Below, in pieces: positions 21,740-60,931 of a DNA stretch of 64,000 nucleotides. Numbering within the stretch: the stretch's first letter is position 1; every line of letters begins with the position of its first letter. Under the pieces are notes generated by a model, which had not been told where the DNA came from, ran no database searches, and saw only the letters and a program-made list of their open reading frames with translations. This DNA is from Prorocentrum cordatum (lineage: Eukaryota > Sar > Dinophyceae > Prorocentrales > Prorocentraceae): the NCBI GenBank assembly GCA_963575745.1, contig CAUYUJ010018616.1, positions 445,680-509,679 of the forward strand, written 5' to 3'. The position numbers and the translations under genes are program-made.

Positions 21740-21801
21740 GGCGCGGTGGGCACACCCAGACACCCTCGAGTAGTGAACAAATCACGACGGGAGGTTTTTT
21801 T
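21740..21801 (-). repeat. Family C, 3' portion cut off by element H1
   Basis: In minus sense this continues the family C sequence whose 5' portion is at 24,474-24,600: AAAAACCTCCCG, then TGATTTGTTC, then CTCGAGGGTGTCTGGG. It matches the uninterrupted copies at 33.3 and 50.9 kb. The two halves are separated by H1, so H1 inserted into a family C copy. Confidence 0.65.
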
Positions 21802-24473
21802 CCCAACCATCCGGTGGTGTTGGGTCCTGGTTTTGAAGAGACATCGCCCCGCGTCTCCTTCCTCCCGCTGCCCATTCTCTCCTCCCCCTCCCCCCGCCTC
21901 CATGCGATTCACCCACCCAGTACAGCGCTTCGTGGCACAATCGGGGACTCCACACAAGGACCCAGCGGGGGTGGCCACATGCGTCCGCCACACCCAATAC
22001 AGCGTTTCGTGGCCCCATAGGGACCACAGCCAAGACCCCAGTGGGGGTGGCCACTTTCGTCCGCCACACCAAGTGCAGCGCTTAGTGGCCTCATGGGGAG
22101 CTCCACGCAAGGCCCCAGTGGGGGTGGCCACATGCGCCCGCCACACCCAGTGCAGCGCTTCGTGGCCCCATAAAAAGCTCTACCCAAAGCCCCAGTGGGG
22201 GTGGCCACATGCGCCCGCCACACCAAGTGCAGCGCTTCGTGGCCCCATAGGGACCTCCACCCAAGGCCCCTGTGGGAATGGCCGCATGCGTCCGCCACAC
22301 CCAGGTCACCGTTTCGTGGCCCCATAGGGACCTCCAACAAAACCCGCAGTGGGAGAAGCCACATGCGTCGGCCACACCCAGTACAGCGCTTCGTGGTCCC
22401 ATAGGGACCCCCGTAAGGCCCCAGCGGGTGTGGCCACATGCGTCCGCCACACCCATTACAGCGCTTCGTGGCCCCATACGGAGCTCCACGCAAGGCCCCA
22501 GCGGGGGTGGCCACACCCAGTACAGCGCTTCGTGGCCCCATAGGGAGCTCCACCCCCCAAGGCCCCAGTGGGGGTGGCCACATGCGCCCGCCATTCCCAA
22601 TACAGCGCTTCGTGGCCCCATAGGGACCACCACCCAAGGCCCCACTGGGGGTGGCCACATGCGTCCGCCACACCCAGTACAGCGCTTCGTGGTCCCATAG
22701 GGAGCTCCACCCAAGGCCCCAGTGGGGGTGGCCGCATGCGTCCGCCACACCCAATGCAGCGCTTCGTGGCCTCATGGGGAGCTCCACGGAAGGCCCAGTG
22801 GGGGTGGCCTCATGCGTCCGCCACACCCAGTACAGCGTTTCGCGGCCCCATTGGGAGCCCCACCCAAGGCGCCAGTGGGAAGGCCACAAACGTCCGCCAT
22901 TCCCAATACACCGTTTCGTGGCCCCGTAGGAGGTCCACCCAAGGCCTCAGTGGGGGTGGCCACACGCGCCCGCAATTCCCAATACAGCGCTTCGTGGCCC
23001 CATAGGGACCTCCACCCAATGCCCCAGTGGAGGTGGCCACATGCGTCCGCCACACCCAGTACAGCGCTTCGTGGTCCCATAGGGAGCTCCACCCAAGGCC
23101 CCAGCGGGGGTGGCCACATGCGTCCGCCATTCCCAGTACAGCGTTTCGTGGCCCCATAGGGACCTCCACCCGAAGCCCCAGTGGGGGTGGCCACATGCGC
23201 CCGCAACACCCAGTACAGTGCTTGGTGGCCCCACAGGGAGCCCCACGCAAGGCTCCAGCGGGGATGGCCACATGCGTCGGCCACACCCAGTACAGCGTTT
23301 CGTGGCCCCATGTGGAGCTCCACCTGTGGCCCCAGTGGGGGTGGCCACATGCGCCCGCAATTCCCAATACAGCGCTTCGTGGCCCCATAGGGACCTCCAC
23401 CCGAAGCCCCAGTGGGGGCGGCCACATGCGTCCGCCACACCCAGTACAGCGCTTCGTGGCCCCATAGGGAGCTCCACCCAAGGCCCCAGCGGGGGTGGCC
23501 ACATGCGTCCGCCATTCCCAATGCAGCGCTTCGTGGCCCCATAGGGAGCTCCACCTGCGGCCCCAGTGGGGGTGGCCACATGCGCCCGCAATTCCCAATA
23601 CAGCGCGTCGTGGCCCCGTAGGGGCCACACCCAAGGCCCCAGTGGGGGTGGCCACGTGCGTCCGCCACACCCAGTACAGCGCTTCGTGGCCCCATAGGGA
23701 CCTCCACCCAAGGCCCCAGTGGGGGTGGCCACATGCGTTCGCCACACCCAGTACAGCGCTTCGTGGCCCCATTGGGGGCTCCACCCAAGGCCCCAGTGGG
23801 GGTGGCCACATGCGTCCGCCACACCCAGTGCAGCGCTTAGTGGCCCCATAGGGAGCTCCACAGAAAGACCCCAATGGCACCGCCCGCATGCGTCGTCCAC
23901 CTTCAGTACTGCATTTCGCGGCCCCATTGATTGGGAGCTCCACCGAAGGCCCCAATGGGGGTGCCCGCATGAGTGCGCCCCACCCAGTACAGCGTTTCGT
24001 TGCCCCGTAGGGGAGCTCCAGTGGCCACCGAAGGCCCCAGTAGCAACGCCCGCATGCGCCCCCCCCCCCTCCCACGGCCCCAGAAAGGGGCTCCACTGAA
24101 GGTCCCAATGTCACCGCCCGCATGCGTCGGCCACACCCAGTGCAGCGTTTCGTGGCCCCGTAGGGAGCTCCACAAGAAGACCCCAGCGGCACCGCCCGCA
24201 TGCGTTTCCCCCAACCAATACAGCGCTTCGTGGCCCCATGGGGAGCTCCAGCGAGGGGCACCGCCCGCATGCGTCAGCCGCACCCAAGACAAAGTTTCGT
24301 GACCCATAGGGGGCCCCACCGAAGGCCCCAATGGCATCGCCCGCACGCGTCTCCCCCACCCATTACGGCACGTCCTGCACGCGCTTCGTGGCCCCATAGG
24401 GAGTTCCACCGAAAGCGGCACCCAGAACGCGTCACTCACAACTGCATACGGTTGGGTCCTTCGCCAGGCTAAT
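21802..24473 (-). mobile_element. Satellite-bearing element H, copy H1 (about 33 units)
   Basis: In minus sense it begins with a leader (ATTAGCCTGGCGAAGGACCC, 24,473 downward), then a tandem array of a 77-base unit, then a purine-rich tail, then TCTCTTCAAAACCAGGACCC, ending GGATGGTTGGG at 21,802. Leader and tail are shared with H2 and H3. The words CCCAACC near the leader end and GGTTGGG at the tail end form a short inverted repeat. Units share TATGGGGCCACGAA, GACGCATG and CTGGGGCCTT. Because 77 is not a multiple of 3 and the unit is almost stop-free, minus frames of up to 486 codons appear; they read the same repeat in rotating frames and are not genes. Flanks are the two halves of a family C repeat. 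Confidence 0.8.
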
Positions 24474-32862: not shown

Positions 32863-32985
32863 TTAAGTCGGGCGTGTCCCTCTACAGGAGGAATATTCAT
32901 AAGTGGTAAGAAAAAATAGTATGGGGACGATGTTTCAAAGTATGTCTGGACTATTGGGGAATATATTTGAATATGTTCGACCTAA
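32863..32985. mobile_element. MITE I, copy I1 (8-bp target duplication)
   Basis: Terminal inverted repeats TTAAGTCGGGC and its partner (GTTCGACCTAA) enclose 123 AT-rich bases. Flanking octamers CCCCAGGA (32,855-32,862) and CCCCCGGA (32,986-32,993) match at 7 of 8 positions. Eight-base duplications are typical of the hAT superfamily. Other copies are I2 (42,560-43,969) and I3 (60,767-60,931). Confidence 0.7.
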
Positions 32986-33149: not shown

Positions 33150-33345
33150 AAAACTTCGAGCCGTGTAACTCATACCCAGAGATCCGGCGTCGTGATTTTT
33201 GCAATGCGGCTTTTCATCCTGAGTCGTGTTTTGACGGTCCCGGGGCCCGGCGAGGGCCGCCAGAGGCCGAAAATCTAGAAAAACCTGCGTCCTGATTTTT
33301 TCAATGCGTTCGAGGTCTGGGTCGAACTCATACATCACCCCCCGA
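33150..33345 (+). repeat. Family C dispersed repeat, intact copy
   Basis: TTTCATCCTGAGTCGTG, TTTTGACGGTCCCGGGGCCC, GCCAGAGGCCGAAAATC, AAAAACCTGCGTCCTGATT and CGAGGTCTGGG are continuous here. This copy shows what the one at 21.7/24.5 kb looked like before H1 entered. Confidence 0.65.
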
Positions 33346-39573: not shown

Positions 39574-40906
39574 ATTAGCCTGGCGAAGGACCCAACCATA
39601 CTCAATTGTGAACACCGCAATTGCGAATGTATTCTTCGGTGGCGCTCCCCATGGGGTCACGAACCGTATGAGGGGTGTGCCGAATTGTGTGGTAGGGTAC
39701 AGAACACGAACGGAAACGATAGGTCTGAGTATGAAAGCTTGAGCGCGGGCGAGTCTAAGCGCGAGTGAGTCTGATTCTGAATGCAGATGCGTGCGATTCA
39801 TTCTATTTGCATGACTGCGAGCATGGAGACGCCTAGTGTAAAAGCATACGACTGTGAATGGTTTGGGTCTGCCTGAATCTGAGAGCTCGTGACACGGAGC
39901 ATAGCCTCCGCAAGGAGTTTTCCTGGGAACCCCGACGGCAACGCCCGCGCGCCGCGACGCCCATGTCGGCACGCCCCACACGAGGATCGCGCACGCTTCC
40001 TCCCCTTGTTGTCCCTTCCTCTTTGCCCGTGCACTCCAAAGTTCAAGGCTGCGGGCGCCGCGCTACGCGCAGGTCGGACGTCGACGACGGACGACGACAA
40101 CGAAGAAGTCTGCCCTAGGGAAGCTGTCGGGACCACCAGTTCCTTATGGGGCCACGAAACGTGTGAGGGGTGTGCCGAATTGGGTGTGCGGGACGCATGC
40201 GGGCGGCGGCACTGGGGCCTTCGGTGCAGGTCCCTGTGGGGCCACGAAACGTGTGAGGGGTGTGCCGAATTTGGTGTGCGGGACGCACGCGGGCGGCGGC
40301 ACTGGGGCCTTCCGTGGCCGAATTGGGTATGCGGGACGCATGCGGGCGGCGGCACTGGGGCCTTCGGTGGAGCTCCCTATGGGGCCACGAAACGTGTGAG
40401 GGGTGTGCCGAAGTGGGTGTGGGGACGCACGCGGACGGCGGCACTGGGGCCTTCGGTGGAGCTCCCTATGAGGCCACGAAACGTGTGAGGGGTGTGCCGA
40501 AGTGGGTGTGCGGGACGCATGCGGGCGGCGGCACTGGGGCCTTCGGTGGAGCTCCCTCTGGGGCCACGAAACGTGTGAGGGGTGTGCCGAATTGGGTGTG
40601 CGGGACGCATGCGGGCGGCGGCACTGGGGCCTTCGGTGGAGCTCCCTATGAGGCCACGAAACGTGTGAGGGCTGTGCCGAATTGGGTGTGCGGGACGCAT
40701 GCGGCCGGCAGCACTGGGGCCTTCGGTGGAGCTCCCTATGGGGCCGCGAAACTTATGAGGGGTGATGGTGCTGATGACGGCGATGATGATGACGATGATG
40801 GTGATGATTACGGGTGAGAGGAGGAGGGAGGGGGGGAAGGAGGATGAGGGAGGACGCGGGGCGCTGTCTCTTCAAAACGAGGACCCAACACCACAGGATG
40901 GTTGGG
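39574..40906 (+). mobile_element. Satellite-bearing element H, copy H2
   Basis: Leader ATTAGCCTGGCGAAGGACCC at 39,574, one degenerate unit (39,640-39,705), about 430 bases of unrelated sequence, then seven units at 40,136-40,760, a GAT/GGA-rich tail, TCTCTTCAAAACGAGGACCC and GGATGGTTGGG ending at 40,906. Units here are about 90 bases, 13 longer than in H1 and H3 through an extra GTGTGAGGGGTGTGCCGAA-type segment. The 430-base stretch may be an insertion. Confidence 0.75.
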
Positions 40907-41254
40907 AACAGTGGAATCAAAAACTCAACTGTTGACATTATGTGTAAAAGACACAGCGCGGAGAAGGCCAGGCATCTTCCCGACGGAGACATGCGAAAGA
41001 GGAGAGTAGTACTCATATTGTCTAATTGTGGAGGTGGAGGAAGAGGTGCTCCGAGAACTTGCCTCCAAGATGGCTGAAGAGAACTGAAGACGGTTGAAGG
41101 TGGCCCCCACCATGCCTCCAAGAGGCCCCTAGAGGGCCACAGTACGGCCCCATTTGATTTCGGAACACCCTCGGGACCCCCCCCCAAAAAAGCCGAAGGA
41201 AAATCAATAACTTGCCCATTGGCACCTATTTGCTTCCGATGGGCTTTTGACGCC

Positions 41255-41530
41255 TCCAGGCTGGGCTGGCTGGGGGGGAGGGCGGTGCCGGGGCCGTGCG
41301 TGTGTGCCGAAATAGACTTGACGGGGCTGAGGGGGCGCGCTGGTTGACGGGTGAGGAGGAGCTGGGCTGGCTGAGGCGGCGGGGGATGGTGCCGGGGCCA
41401 TGCGCGAGTGCCGAAATAAAATGGTCGGGGCGGAGGGAGCGCGCTGGCTGGGGAGAGAGGGGGAGCTGGGCTGGCTGGGAGGGGGGCGGGCGGGCGGCGC
41501 TGGCGATGTGCGTGCATGTCGAAGCAAATG
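41255..41530 (+). repeat. Minisatellite N, first block
   Basis: About 2.5 units of ~100 bases: GAGCTGGGCTGGCTG, CGGTGCCGGGGCCGTGCG, TGCCGAAATA, ATGGTCGGGGCGGAGGG and GCGCGCTGGCTGGGG. The array continues at 42,140-42,559 and 43,970-44,475. Confidence 0.75.
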
Positions 41531-42559: not shown

Positions 42560-43969
42560 TTAGGTCGGGCATGTCCCCCTACAGGGGGATTTTGGACGAA
42601 CAATTGAAAATACCCCAAAACATATTCAGAATTATCCTGGCGAAGGTCCCAACCATATGCAATTGTGGGTACCGTAATTGTGAATATCTGCTTCGGTGAA
42701 GCTCCCTATGGGGCCACGAAGCGCTGCACTGGGCGGGGGGGAACGCTGTGCTGTGTGGGTGGTGTGCCGAATTGGGCTTCCAGGACGCATGCGGACGGTC
42801 CCACTGAGGGCTTCGGTGGAGCTCCCATGGGGCCACGAAGCGCTCTACTGAGTGAGTGAAAATGCCAAGTGGGGTTACCGGGACGCATGCGGACGGTCCC
42901 ACTGGGGGCTTCGGTGGAGCCCCCTATGGGGCCACGAAACGCTGCACTGCGCGGGTGAAAATGCCAAATTACATGTCCCGGACGCATGCGGACGGTGGCA
43001 CTGTGGCCTTGGGTGGAGCCCCCTATGGGGCCACGAAGCGCTGCACTGGGTGGGTGAAGATGCCAAATTGGGCTTCTGGGACGCATGCGGACGGGGGCAC
43101 TGGGGCCTTCGGTGGAGCTCCCTATGGGGCCACGAAACGCTGTACTGGGTGGGTGAAGCGCAGGGAGGAGTGGGAGGGCCACGAAACGCTGTACTGGGTG
43201 TGCGGGACGCATGCGGACGATAGCGCTGGGACCTTCGGTGGGGCTGCCTATGGGGCCACGAAGCGGTGTACTGGGTTTGCGGGACGCATGCGGACGGTAG
43301 CACTGGGACCTTCGGTGGGGCTCCCTATGGGGCCACGAAACGGTGTACTGGGTGGGTGAAACGCAGCGAGGAGGGGGAGGGGGGCCACGAACGCTGTACT
43401 GCGCGTGCGGGACGCATGCGGACGGTAGCACTGGGGCCTTCGGTGGAGCTCCCTATGGGGCCACGAAACGCTGTACTGGGTGTGCGGGGCGCATGCGAAC
43501 CGTAGCACTGGGACCTTCGGTGGAGCTCCCTATGGGGCCACGAAACGCTGCACTGGGTGTGCGGGGCGCACGCGGACGGTAGCACTGGGGCCTTCGGTGG
43601 AGCTCCCTATGGGGCCACGAAACGGTATACTGGGTGTGCGGGACGCATGCGGACGGTAGCACTGGGACCTTCGGTGGGGCTCCCAGTGGGGCCACGAAAC
43701 GCTGTACTGGGTGGGTGAAACGCAGGGAGGAGGGGGAGGAGGGCCACGAAACGCTGTACTGGGTGTGCGGGACGCATGCGGACGGTGGAGGAGGAGGGGG
43801 AAGAGGAGGAGAGAAGGAGAACGCGGGGACCCTCTCTTCAAAACGAAGACCCAACACCACAGGATGGTTTGGAAATATCCAGAAGTAGCCAGAAAATTAT
43901 CAAAACAAATCGTCCCCAGACTATTTTTTAAGCTATTCTTGAATCTGTAAAGGGACAGGCCCGACTTAA
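42560..43969. mobile_element. MITE I, copy I2, containing element H3
   Basis: Left arm TTAGGTCGGGCATGTCCCCC, right arm GGGACAGGCCCGACTTAA. The exact octamer GGCGCGCG flanks it (42,552-42,559 and 43,970-43,977). After removal of H3 the remainder is about 170 AT-rich bases comparable with I1 and I3; shared interior words are GGGGGATTTTGGACGAA and AGACTAT. Confidence 0.85.
42631..43872 (+). mobile_element. Satellite-bearing element H, copy H3 (about 14 units)
   Basis: Leader ATTATCCTGGCGAAGGTCCC, then 77-base units to about 43,785, a GGA-rich tail, CTCTCTTCAAAACGAAGACC and GGATGGTTTGG. Units share TATGGGGCCACGAAACGCTG, GACGCATGCGGACGG and CCTTCGGTGGAGC. Several units are truncated and joined through a GCAGGGAGGAGTGGGAGG-like spacer (43,160, 43,370, 43,725). 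AATTATCC before and AAATATCC after it could be a diverged 8-base duplication. Overlapping open frames on both strands are repeat artefacts. Confidence 0.8.
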
Positions 43970-44475
43970 GGCGCGCGGGCTGGGGGGAGAGGGGGAACTT
44001 GGCTGCCTTGGGGGGGGGGCGGGCGGCGCCGGCGCCGTGCGTGCGTGCCGAAACAAGGAGTCGTGGTAGAGGGGACGCACAGAATGGGGGGCGAGGGAGA
44101 GCTGGGTTGGCCGGCGGGGGGGAGCGGTGCAAGTGCCGTCGTGCGTATGTGCCGAAACAACATGGTCGTGACGGAGGGGGTGCGCTGGCTAGTGGGTGAG
44201 GAGCTGGGCTGGCTGGGGGGGGCGCGGTGCCAGTGCCGTGCGCGCGTGCAAGAATAAAATGGTCGGGGCGGAGGGGGCGCGCTGGCTGGGAGGCGAGGGG
44301 GAGCTGGGCTGGCTGGTCGGGGTGTGGGCGGTGCCAGTGCTGTGCGCGCGTGCCGAAATGCGTGATGGCGGAGGGGGCGCGCTGGCTGGGGGAAGAGGGA
44401 GAGCTGGGCTGGCTGGGGGGCTGGGGGTGGGGAGGCGGTGCCGGTGCCGGGCGCGCGCGCCGAAACAAAGTGGTC
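43970..44475 (+). repeat. Minisatellite N, third block (about 5 units)
   Basis: The array resumes right after the target duplication of I2, with units such as GGGGGAGCTGGGCTGGCTG, GTGCCAGTGCCGTGCGCGCG and AAAATGGTCGGGGCGGAGG. It ends near 44,475. From 44,480 to 44,980 there is no gene; 44,700-44,880 is CA-rich single-copy-looking DNA. Confidence 0.8.
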
Positions 44476-50296: not shown

Positions 50297-50795
50297 ACAC
50301 ACTCGAAAGTGGCGACGGCTCCACATTTCGCAGTCCCCCAGGAATGGCGAGGTCTTGGTAGGATCTGCATGTGCCCGCACTCTGGGGGCTCCTCCAGCAG
50401 CCCTCGAAAGTGGCGACGGTTTCACACTTCGCAGCCCCCCCCAAGGATGGCGATGTCCCATTTGGGCATGCGTGTGGTCCCACTGTGCGGGCTCCCCCCG
50501 CAGCTCTCGAAAGTGGTGACGGTTTCACACTTCGCAGCCCCCCGTTTGGGTCTGTGTGTGGCCCCACTGTGTGGGCTCCCCCAGCAGCCCTCGAAAATGG
50601 CGACCATTTCACACTTCGAAGCCACACCAGGGATGGCGAGGTCCCGTTTGGGTCTGCGTGTGGCCCCATTGTGCGGGCTCCCCGAGCAGCCCTCGAGAGT
50701 GGCGACCATTTCACACTTCGCAACCTCCCAGTCCCGTTTTGGTCTGCGTGTGGCCCCACTGTGCGGGCTCCCCCCGCAGCCATCGAAAGTGGCGA
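50297..50795. repeat. Minisatellite K, ~100-bp unit, 5-6 units
   Basis: CTCGAAAGTGGCGACGGTTT, CACACTTCGCAGCC, GATGGCGA, then TTTGGGTCTGCGTGTGGCCC, CACTGTGCGGGCTCCCC and CAGC. Unit starts are near 50,303, 50,404, 50,507, 50,591, 50,692 and 50,783; 84-91-base units lack the GGATGGCGA part. A (CA)n run precedes it. It ends against family C. Confidence 0.85.
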
Positions 50796-50950
50796 CAGGA
50801 GGTGTCGACCCCTTTCCCAGGACTGGCTCTTCATGCTGAATCGTTGTTTGACGGTCCCGAGGGCCGGTGAAGGTACCCACAGGCCGAAAATAGCGAACAA
50901 ACTCCCGGCGCGATTCTTCCATACCTCTGGGTCTTCCGCTCGGCGGTTGC
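50796..50950 (+). repeat. Family C dispersed repeat, intact copy
   Basis: GGTGTCGACCCCTTTCCC, TTCATGCTGAATCGT, TTTGACGGTCCCGAGGGC, CCACAGGCCGAAAATAG, AACAAACTCCCGGCGCG and ACCTCTGGGT. It is followed within ten bases by D3. Confidence 0.65.
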
Positions 50951-60766: not shown

Positions 60767-60931
60767 TTCGGTCGCCCCTGCTCTCCTACAGGGGGATTTT
60801 GGACGAAAAATAAAAATAGCCAGAAACATTACAAGATGTTATAATCAACTCAAGAACCTTCAACAACAAAAACCCAATGAGTCGCTATTATGTTTGGACT
60901 ATGTTGGAATAGAGGGACGTGCCCGACTTAA
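60767..60931. mobile_element. MITE I, copy I3
   Basis: Left arm degraded (TTCGGTCGCCC), then CTACAGGGGGATTTTGGACG as in I2. The right arm GGGACGTGCCCGACTTAA is intact. AT-rich interior with GGACTATGTTGG, shared with I1 and I2. Flanking octamers match at only 5 of 8 positions. Confidence 0.65.

Follow-up and report, generated by a model that had tools for sequence, protein, structure and literature searches.

Probable non-autonomous Helitron-like transposons of Prorocentrum cordatum carry satellite arrays and share their 3' end with a predicted RepHel-coding relative

The three repeats H1, H2, and H3 of the window (the whole analysed stretch of 64,000 nucleotides, C17767:445680-509679) are, with a probability of roughly 0.92, non-autonomous Helitron-like (rolling-circle) transposons, which are similar to Helitron2 in most features of their ends and would depend on a RepHel-coding relative with the same 3' end for their mobilisation in trans. 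The placement among the Helitrons is based on the agreement of the termini, the target, the lack of a target duplication, and the coding relative. We infer the enzymology, the mobilisation in trans, and the direction and mode of array growth that are described below.

Each element has the layout T-run|TTCCCAACCATCC... (5' hairpin) ... array ... ATGGTTGGGTCCTTCGCCAGG(C/A)TAA|T-run. This is the reverse of the orientation in the original prediction, whose "tail" is the 5' end and whose "leader" is the 3' end. H1 (21800..24472, plus strand), the limits of which come from the comparison of 33 5' ends and 43 3' ends and from empty sites, has the termini 5' TTCCCAACC ... CCAGGCTAA 3'. Its 5' end (21802..21824, plus) contains the 5' asymmetric terminal inverted repeat (5'-ATIR) CCCAACCAT within the hairpin CCCAAC/GTTGGG, its satellite array (21932..24410, plus; TRF and core scan) has 31 cores with a spacing of mostly 75-77 nt, and its 3' end (24448..24472, plus) is composed of the 3'-ATIR ACGGTTGGG, with one mismatch, TCCTTCGCCAGG, and CTAA. 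H2 (39575..40908, minus strand) and H3 (42632..43874, minus strand; also compared as L001) are complete elements delimited by the motif occurrences and the end comparison. The array of H2 (40133..40764, minus; TRF and core scan) has 7 cores that are mostly 89-90 nt apart, with one step of 143. The element further contains a remnant of the 3' untranslated region and the 3' end of a coding element (39579..40072, minus; 84.6% over 499 nt to the copy L059), in which an isolated 3'-subterminal core (39638..39660, minus) lies 82 nt before the CCAGG end, at the position where the coding copies have their one core. In H3, the array (42695..43695, minus; TRF and core scan) has 12 cores.

The leader CCTGGCGAAGGNCCCAACC occurs three times in the window with at most 3 mismatches, at 24450-24468 (minus), 39579-39597 (plus), and 42636-42654 (plus), while the tail motifs CTCTTCAAAAC and GACCCAACACCAC have three exact occurrences each, at the opposite end of H1, H2, and H3, the order and orientation of leader and tail motifs agreeing across the three. 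All 47 window matches of the array core (at most 6 mismatches) are found inside H1-H3, and with a looser threshold the totals are 31, 8, and 12 cores, the eighth core of H2 being located 495 nt beyond its 7-core array. The original prediction of three copies, each consisting of a tandem array between common ends and mobile as a whole, is thus borne out. The arrays themselves are also confirmed, with counts of 31, 8, and 12 cores instead of about 33, 7-8, and 14 units, and the description of the H3 array as a plain 77-mer has to be corrected, since its spacings are a mixture of 77, 98-99, and 126-128 nt with two shorter ones. A scan of the window with Rfam gave no match at the gathering score.

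The consensus element can be written as TTCCCAACCATCC ... ATGGTTGGG(T/A)CCTTCGCCAGG(C/A)TAA inside T-runs, and in the end comparison the T-run target is present on both sides of the element. Across the 33 distinct 5' ends compared, T occupies the two positions immediately ahead of CCC in 33 and 31 cases, and the three positions further upstream in 25, 26, and 20. At the 3' end, the position after CCAGG is C or A in 40 of 43 rows, the following ones are T in 38, A in 39, and then A in 29 or T in 12, and the next four places 3' of the end are T in 34, 38, 32, and 30 of these 43 rows, which include a few diverged or chance ones (e.g., L010 minus and L038 minus). The shortest displayed head-to-tail joint, CCAGGATAA-TT-CCCAACC, yields the same element limits.

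The 5'-ATIR CCCAACCAT, situated 0-2 nt from the 5' end, pairs with ATGGTTGGG, situated about 16 nt from the 3' end, and this pairing is perfect in 18 of 30 paired ends. The same repeat partly pairs with GTTGGG just downstream of it, all six Watson-Crick pairs being present in 21 of the 30. The fold energy of this 5' hairpin is not significant (z -0.97), and no 3' hairpin is detected in three stretches representing two 3'-end types, which fold like their shuffles (z -0.20, 0.58, and 0.07). Compensatory changes in the ATIR or the hairpin were not found among the 30 paired ends.

The search of the genome (4,128,499,153 bases in 21,875 contigs) gave 11,727 exact 3' ends (5,918 + 5,809) and 16,658 exact 5' ends (8,370 + 8,288). 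The reversed-pattern controls gave 0 for both ends in the 4.13 Gb, and the ends are therefore not due to chance; scans of IMG/VR with both ends gave 0 matches. Among the exact matches listed for contigs C1-C103, 36 of 79 leaders are accompanied, at a distance of up to 5 kb, by a tail on the correct side and strand, compared to 0.8 expected; in a further 5 pairs the tail is on the wrong side, and in 3 it is on the opposite strand. Conversely, of the 98 tails, 35 are within 5 kb of a leader and 63 are not. When up to 5 edits are allowed, a 5' end is found within 5 kb for 15 of the first 20 listed leader places, which were fetched irrespective of their content (one of the 15, L047, duplicates L045). 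Rare pairing of leader and tail, which had been named as an outcome that would speak against a mobile element, is accordingly not what is observed.

The remaining 5 of the 20 leader places have no 5' end within 5 kb. Several cores are present at three of these loci (L042, L048, and L058), three cores at L050, and one at L039. The concern that the same arrays might commonly occur without the ends is thus settled in part: outside H1-H3 there are none in the window, and arrays do occur at three of the five unpaired leader loci. The complete distinct elements (n = 25) have lengths of 944 to 2,754 bp, and all 25 contain at least 5 cores. Nine of the 25 come from eight loci recruited by their similarity to H3, and two of those nine, L006 and L007, have common flanks.

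The insertion of H1 was analyzed using its joined flanks. Among 1,915 first-look candidates, 40 places were scored, of which 39 span the junction uninterrupted with 80-84% identity and are copies of the family C repeat, the fortieth being the right flank of H1 itself. The proposal that H1 splits a family C repeat is hence supported by 39 uninterrupted copies, and one uninterrupted family C repeat, i.e., an empty site, is also present inside the window (33212..33322, minus; 75% to the joined flanks of H1). Compared to these flanks, 38 of the 39 empty sites are 2-5 nt shorter and one is 6 nt longer, and because of this variation in length the exact insertion joint of H1 is not fixed. The four empty sites that were read (L074-L077) have GACGGGAGGTTTTT(T).G..ATTTTC, compared to GACGGGAGGTTTTTTT[element]TGTTGTATTTTC in H1, and display no target site duplication beyond a few Ts. 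This comparison covers one insertion, that of H1. For H3, the comparison within the window reveals similarity to 32863-32931 in parts of both flanks and to 60767-60829 in the 3' flank, which is compatible with an insertion into a MITE. The pairs in fixed orientation and the empty sites together uphold the original proposal that the element is mobile and non-autonomous and disperses the array it contains.

The link to a coding relative comes from L052, where an open stretch of 465 residues is found between the array and the 3' end. The fragment alone has 0 matches in Pfam and 0 in PDB. However, 15 relatives of it were found, including PIF1-like helicases that score above the Pfam cutoffs (P0014 with PIF1 and P0013 with AAA_19), and the profile of the 15 relatives (A1) matches PDB PIF1 helicases at 3.8e-5. 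The search with P0002, one of these relatives, gave 10,136 candidates in the genome, and the 73 that were scored contain 78 matches, many of them in long open frames. At 11 of the 12 best loci the 3' end of the family (at most 2 substitutions) is present downstream in the sense of the helicase, L065 being the one without it.

The best coding copy (C19889, L059) has an open frame of 2,648 codons. Its upstream frame (P0017) matches Helitron_like_N (PF14214) with 31.5 bits relative to a cutoff of 28.9, while the matches to DUF6570 in this frame are below the cutoff. PF14214 is present in 95 of the 109 homologues listed, and one homologue (P0040, 39% identity) is labelled Prorocentrum cordatum. 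P0017 contains the motif QGRGSLHPH, which we take to be the HUH motif of Rep; in 11 sequences, hand-picked from the 109 homologues plus the query, QGRGSLHP is invariant and the second H nearly so. The helicase frame of C19889 is below the Pfam cutoffs (AAA_19 0.011, PIF1 0.013). Between the Rep and helicase parts, 1,286 nt (620514-621799) are outside the sequence read, and the tyrosines of Rep may be located there. In the 11 copies where the helicase C-terminus was found, the frame stops after it and leaves no room for an endonuclease, and Pfam finds no endonuclease domain in the 1,098-residue frame of L059. L046, L051, and L052 combine both family ends with helicase remnants; in L046 and L051, the C-terminus of the helicase is retained together with the 3' untranslated region. 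The 5' end of the coding copy was not found in L071. As judged from the sequences, the coding relative of the family is thus a putative RepHel element with a PIF1-like helicase, linked to the family through the common 3' end.

With this evidence at hand, other assignments can be weighed. One could consider a MITE or a foldback-like cut-and-paste element, such as Tetris, with CCCAACCAT/ATGGTTGGG as terminal inverted repeats, an internal array, and a DDE transposase. The 9-bp inverted repeat at the two ends, perfect in 18 of 30 pairs, would fit such an element. However, the repeat is asymmetric, being 0-2 nt from one end and about 16 nt from the other, no fixed-length target duplication is seen at the four empty sites of the one insertion, helicase remnants are present between the ends, and the same 3' end is found on RepHel elements. 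It is mainly this RepHel link that largely refutes the cut-and-paste assignment, which we reject on account of the asymmetric ends, the missing duplication, and the RepHel link, and consider very improbable. Even less probable is that H1-H3 are ordinary satellite arrays spread by unequal exchange, segmental duplication, or extrachromosomal circles, their shared ends being mere flanks. Some copies do lie in apparent segmental duplications (L045/L047 and L046/L048), and 5 of 20 leaders have no 5' end, but the fixed ends and the empty sites lead us to reject this scenario: 39 empty sites are available for one insertion, the ends stay constant amid differing flanks, which is precisely the observation that counts against mere flanks, and no core is present in the window beyond H1-H3.

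The closest competitor is a true Helentron/HINE with an endonuclease-bearing partner, rather than a Helitron2-like element. The central repeats, the TT-rich target, and the subterminal inverted repeats are as in HINE and DINE-1. On the other hand, no endonuclease is found in the 11 frames that end after the helicase, nor by Pfam in L059, the repeat has 9 bp and not 11-15, and the 3'-ATIR lies at a much shorter distance from the end than in mite HINEs, for which the excerpts of PMC4067079 state 38-60 bp. A strict Helentron is rejected because of the missing endonuclease in the copies read, and we regard this assignment as unlikely, although clearly less so than the two preceding ones. A strict Helitron2 is rejected as well, since the distance of the 3'-ATIR is about 16 nt rather than 20-30 nt and the 3' hairpin is missing. 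The family is thus a Helitron by its protein and its target, and it is Helitron2-like, with two terminal features of Helitron2 not matched.

The coding copies also throw light on the monomer. The last 494 nt of H2 align with the 3' untranslated region of C19889 with 84.6% identity over 499 columns, the two ending together, and 6 of the 7 array cores of H2 match one single 58-nt place in this region. A source for the remaining part of the unit, which makes up about 32 nt in the 90-mer, was not found in the sequence read from C19889. In the 10 coding copies where the C-terminus and the 3' end were both found, one core is present between the stop codon and the 3' end in 8 and none in 2, and this single core is located 82 nt (7 copies) or 83 nt (1 copy) before the end. 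The last core of the complete elements is at the same place, 81-82 nt from the 3' end, in 20 of 25, and at 122, 122, 138, 138, and 391 nt in the other five. Of these 20 elements, 14 have this core together with the array, and it is parted from the array by 390-2,090 nt in the other 6 (H2, L044, L046, L051, L052, and L053), where the separating sequence is related to the 3' part of the coding element. Because of this separation, the core in these six elements is not simply the last unit of the array. The presence of the subterminal core in 8 of 10 coding copies and 20 of 25 complete elements therefore means that the monomer core and the 3'-subterminal segment of the transposon have a common source.

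The likeliest order of events is that deletion derivatives amplified the single core located near the 3' end. An array could also have been already present in the 5' part of the coding copies, since all six of these elements have it 5' of the coding remnant and the 5' part of the coding copies lies outside the sequence read. The identity between 77-mer units is 0.940 within and 0.846 between elements (11 elements), and for the 90-mer units the values are 0.932 and 0.856 (10 elements), showing that the homogenisation is local to each copy. The 14 units of L051 have a mean identity of 0.990.

A mechanism consistent with the Helitron-like assignment would start with the nicking of one strand by Rep at the 5' TTCCC end, the displacement of the strand being helped by the PIF1-like helicase. 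The pairing of the 5'-ATIR CCCAACCAT with the 3'-ATIR ATGGTTGGG, together with the CCAGG(C/A)TAA end, would then stop the transfer, and the displaced strand would join a T-run without duplicating it. Every copy would amplify and homogenise the monomer on its own, the probable cause being slippage or unequal exchange in the course of replication. One may tentatively go further and regard the rolling-circle transposon as a satellite factory, in which a 3'-subterminal segment that coding copies have once near their 3' end is multiplied during the element's own replication, every non-autonomous copy thereby founding and homogenising a private satellite, and the array-bearing copies out-multiplying their partner to more than ten thousand ends. 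We consider this broader picture possible, though rather less than an even bet.

It should be mentioned here that a 3' end is followed by a 5' end within 26 nt at 400 places in the genome, compared to 0.6 expected, and 17 of the 33 displayed spacers consist of only Ts after TA(A). Within the Helitron-like assignment, these head-to-tail rows might be rolling-circle multimers and not nested insertions. In addition to the number of junctions, the runs of several junctions on C1346 and C4862 are in line with multimers, as is the low number of head-to-head joints (6 places, corresponding to 12 hits of a palindromic pattern). Against this, T-runs are present at both ends of the element, and repeated insertion into them would also give equal orientation, and the junctions within a run are 1.4-2.4 kb apart, implying that neighbours differ in length. 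Rolling-circle multimers and repeated T-run insertion would both produce such rows, and the data do not separate them; overall, we put the multimers at slightly below even odds.

The origin of satellite DNA is a long-standing question, and the present analysis assigns a monomer core to a single, defined location in a coding transposon, with a constant distance to the 3' end. As there are many thousand copies, each with its own version of the array, the birth and growth of arrays become traceable copy by copy. Moreover, a rolling-circle family is shown to reach a very high abundance in a dinoflagellate; the genomes of this group are large and little annotated. Helitrons are named among the enriched repeats of Symbiodinium in the excerpts of PMC9087856, whereas the text of a 2024 review of dinoflagellate genomics (PMC11453091) contains no occurrence of Helitron, rolling-circle, or satellite, and no paper combining Prorocentrum and Helitron was found in the literature searched. 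The assertion that no dinoflagellate family of this form has been described is thus uncontradicted by that literature, which consists of freely accessible papers. The form as such is not new, as satellite-carrying non-autonomous Helitrons have been published for flies, mites, and oysters.

Among the known systems, Helitron2 (e.g., Helitron-1N1_CRe of Chlamydomonas) is characterized in the excerpts of PMC3627910 by asymmetric terminal inverted repeats and a 5' hairpin, the 3'-ATIR being 20-30 nt from the end. The present family is alike in its 5'-ATIR at 0-2 nt from the end and its 5' hairpin, in the insertion beside TTTT without duplication (PMC3627910), and in a RepHel without endonuclease (excerpts of PMC4067079). 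It differs in the 3'-ATIR at about 16 nt from the end, in having no detectable 3' hairpin, and in carrying a satellite array.

Satellite arrays in non-autonomous rolling-circle elements are reported in the sections consulted of PMC4067079 and PMC7492417 and discussed in those of PMC9659126 and PMC8268682. As far as the excerpts of PMC7492417 go, Cg_HINE of Crassostrea gigas is likewise a non-autonomous rolling-circle element with subterminal inverted repeats (subTIRs) that is distributed over the whole genome and has satellite-like arrays flanked by a conserved module on either side (left and right), but it belongs to the Helentron class and has a subTIR of 11-12 bp, a microsatellite, and a 3' palindrome. 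Its authors were unable to relate the elements to an autonomous one (PMC7492417, same excerpts), unlike the present case, where a coding relative has the same 3' end and the monomer core. The DINE-1/HINE elements of Drosophila and mites, as portrayed in the excerpts of PMC4067079, share with our family the subTIRs, the preference for TT, the central tandem repeats, the high copy number, and the relation to a RepHel element. They differ by their Helentron partner with an endonuclease, a subTIR of 12-15 bp, and a 3' palindrome, and in mites the 3' subTIR is 38-60 bp from the end. DINE-TR1 and Tetris, in the excerpts of the review PMC9659126, are similar in that transposon-borne repeats serve as a source of satellites, but both are fly elements and Tetris is a foldback element. 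Satellite-carrying Helitrons were thus already known from DINE-1 and Cg_HINE, and what is new here is the host, the link to the partner, and the relation of the monomer to it.

In the genome listing of helicase matches, the matched part is free of stop codons in many copies of the coding relative of family H (a RepHel element with a probably PIF1-like helicase), and the open frames holding such matches reach 4,751 codons (e.g., C2066:12498-13859). The non-array parts vary among complete elements. That of L044 is related to the 3′ part of the coding element; L040 and L041 have in common a 5′ part that is lower in GC (73.6% identity over 435 nt).

Two pairs of leader sites, i.e., 3′ ends of family H, have the same 3′ flanks and lie about 23.6-23.7 kb apart, namely C1:2454586 (L045) with C1:2478326 (L047), and C1:2467669 (L046) with C1:2491272 (L048). 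The element interiors of L045 and L047 are identical over 944 bp; L046 has a 5′ end within 5 kb of the leader, and L048 is without one in the same range. This recurrence resembles that of a segmental duplication. The adjacent elements L056 (C2:2319145) and L057 (C2:2322511) also have a common 3′ flank (96% over the first 81 nt), as if a host stretch had been duplicated together with or around the element.

H3 lies amid GC-rich tandem repeats of 100-104 nt, at 41260-41484 on one side and 43970-44420 on the other, with similar consensus units, and near a possible palindromic element. Another tandem array in the window, at 50302-50796, has units that are roughly 84-103 nt long (also 186 nt) and does not contain the family H core.

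Among the 30 paired elements, the 5′ copy of the ATIR, the 9-bp asymmetric terminal inverted repeat, shows several mismatching positions at which A is replaced by G or C by T; these leave wobble pairs and could stem from deamination or from chance. At L003:1169 (minus strand), a diverged 3′ end, CATTTGGTTCGGTCTCTCGCCAGG ctaattttt, suggests that there may be older sister families whose ATIR sequence differs, in which compensatory changes in the repeat might be found.
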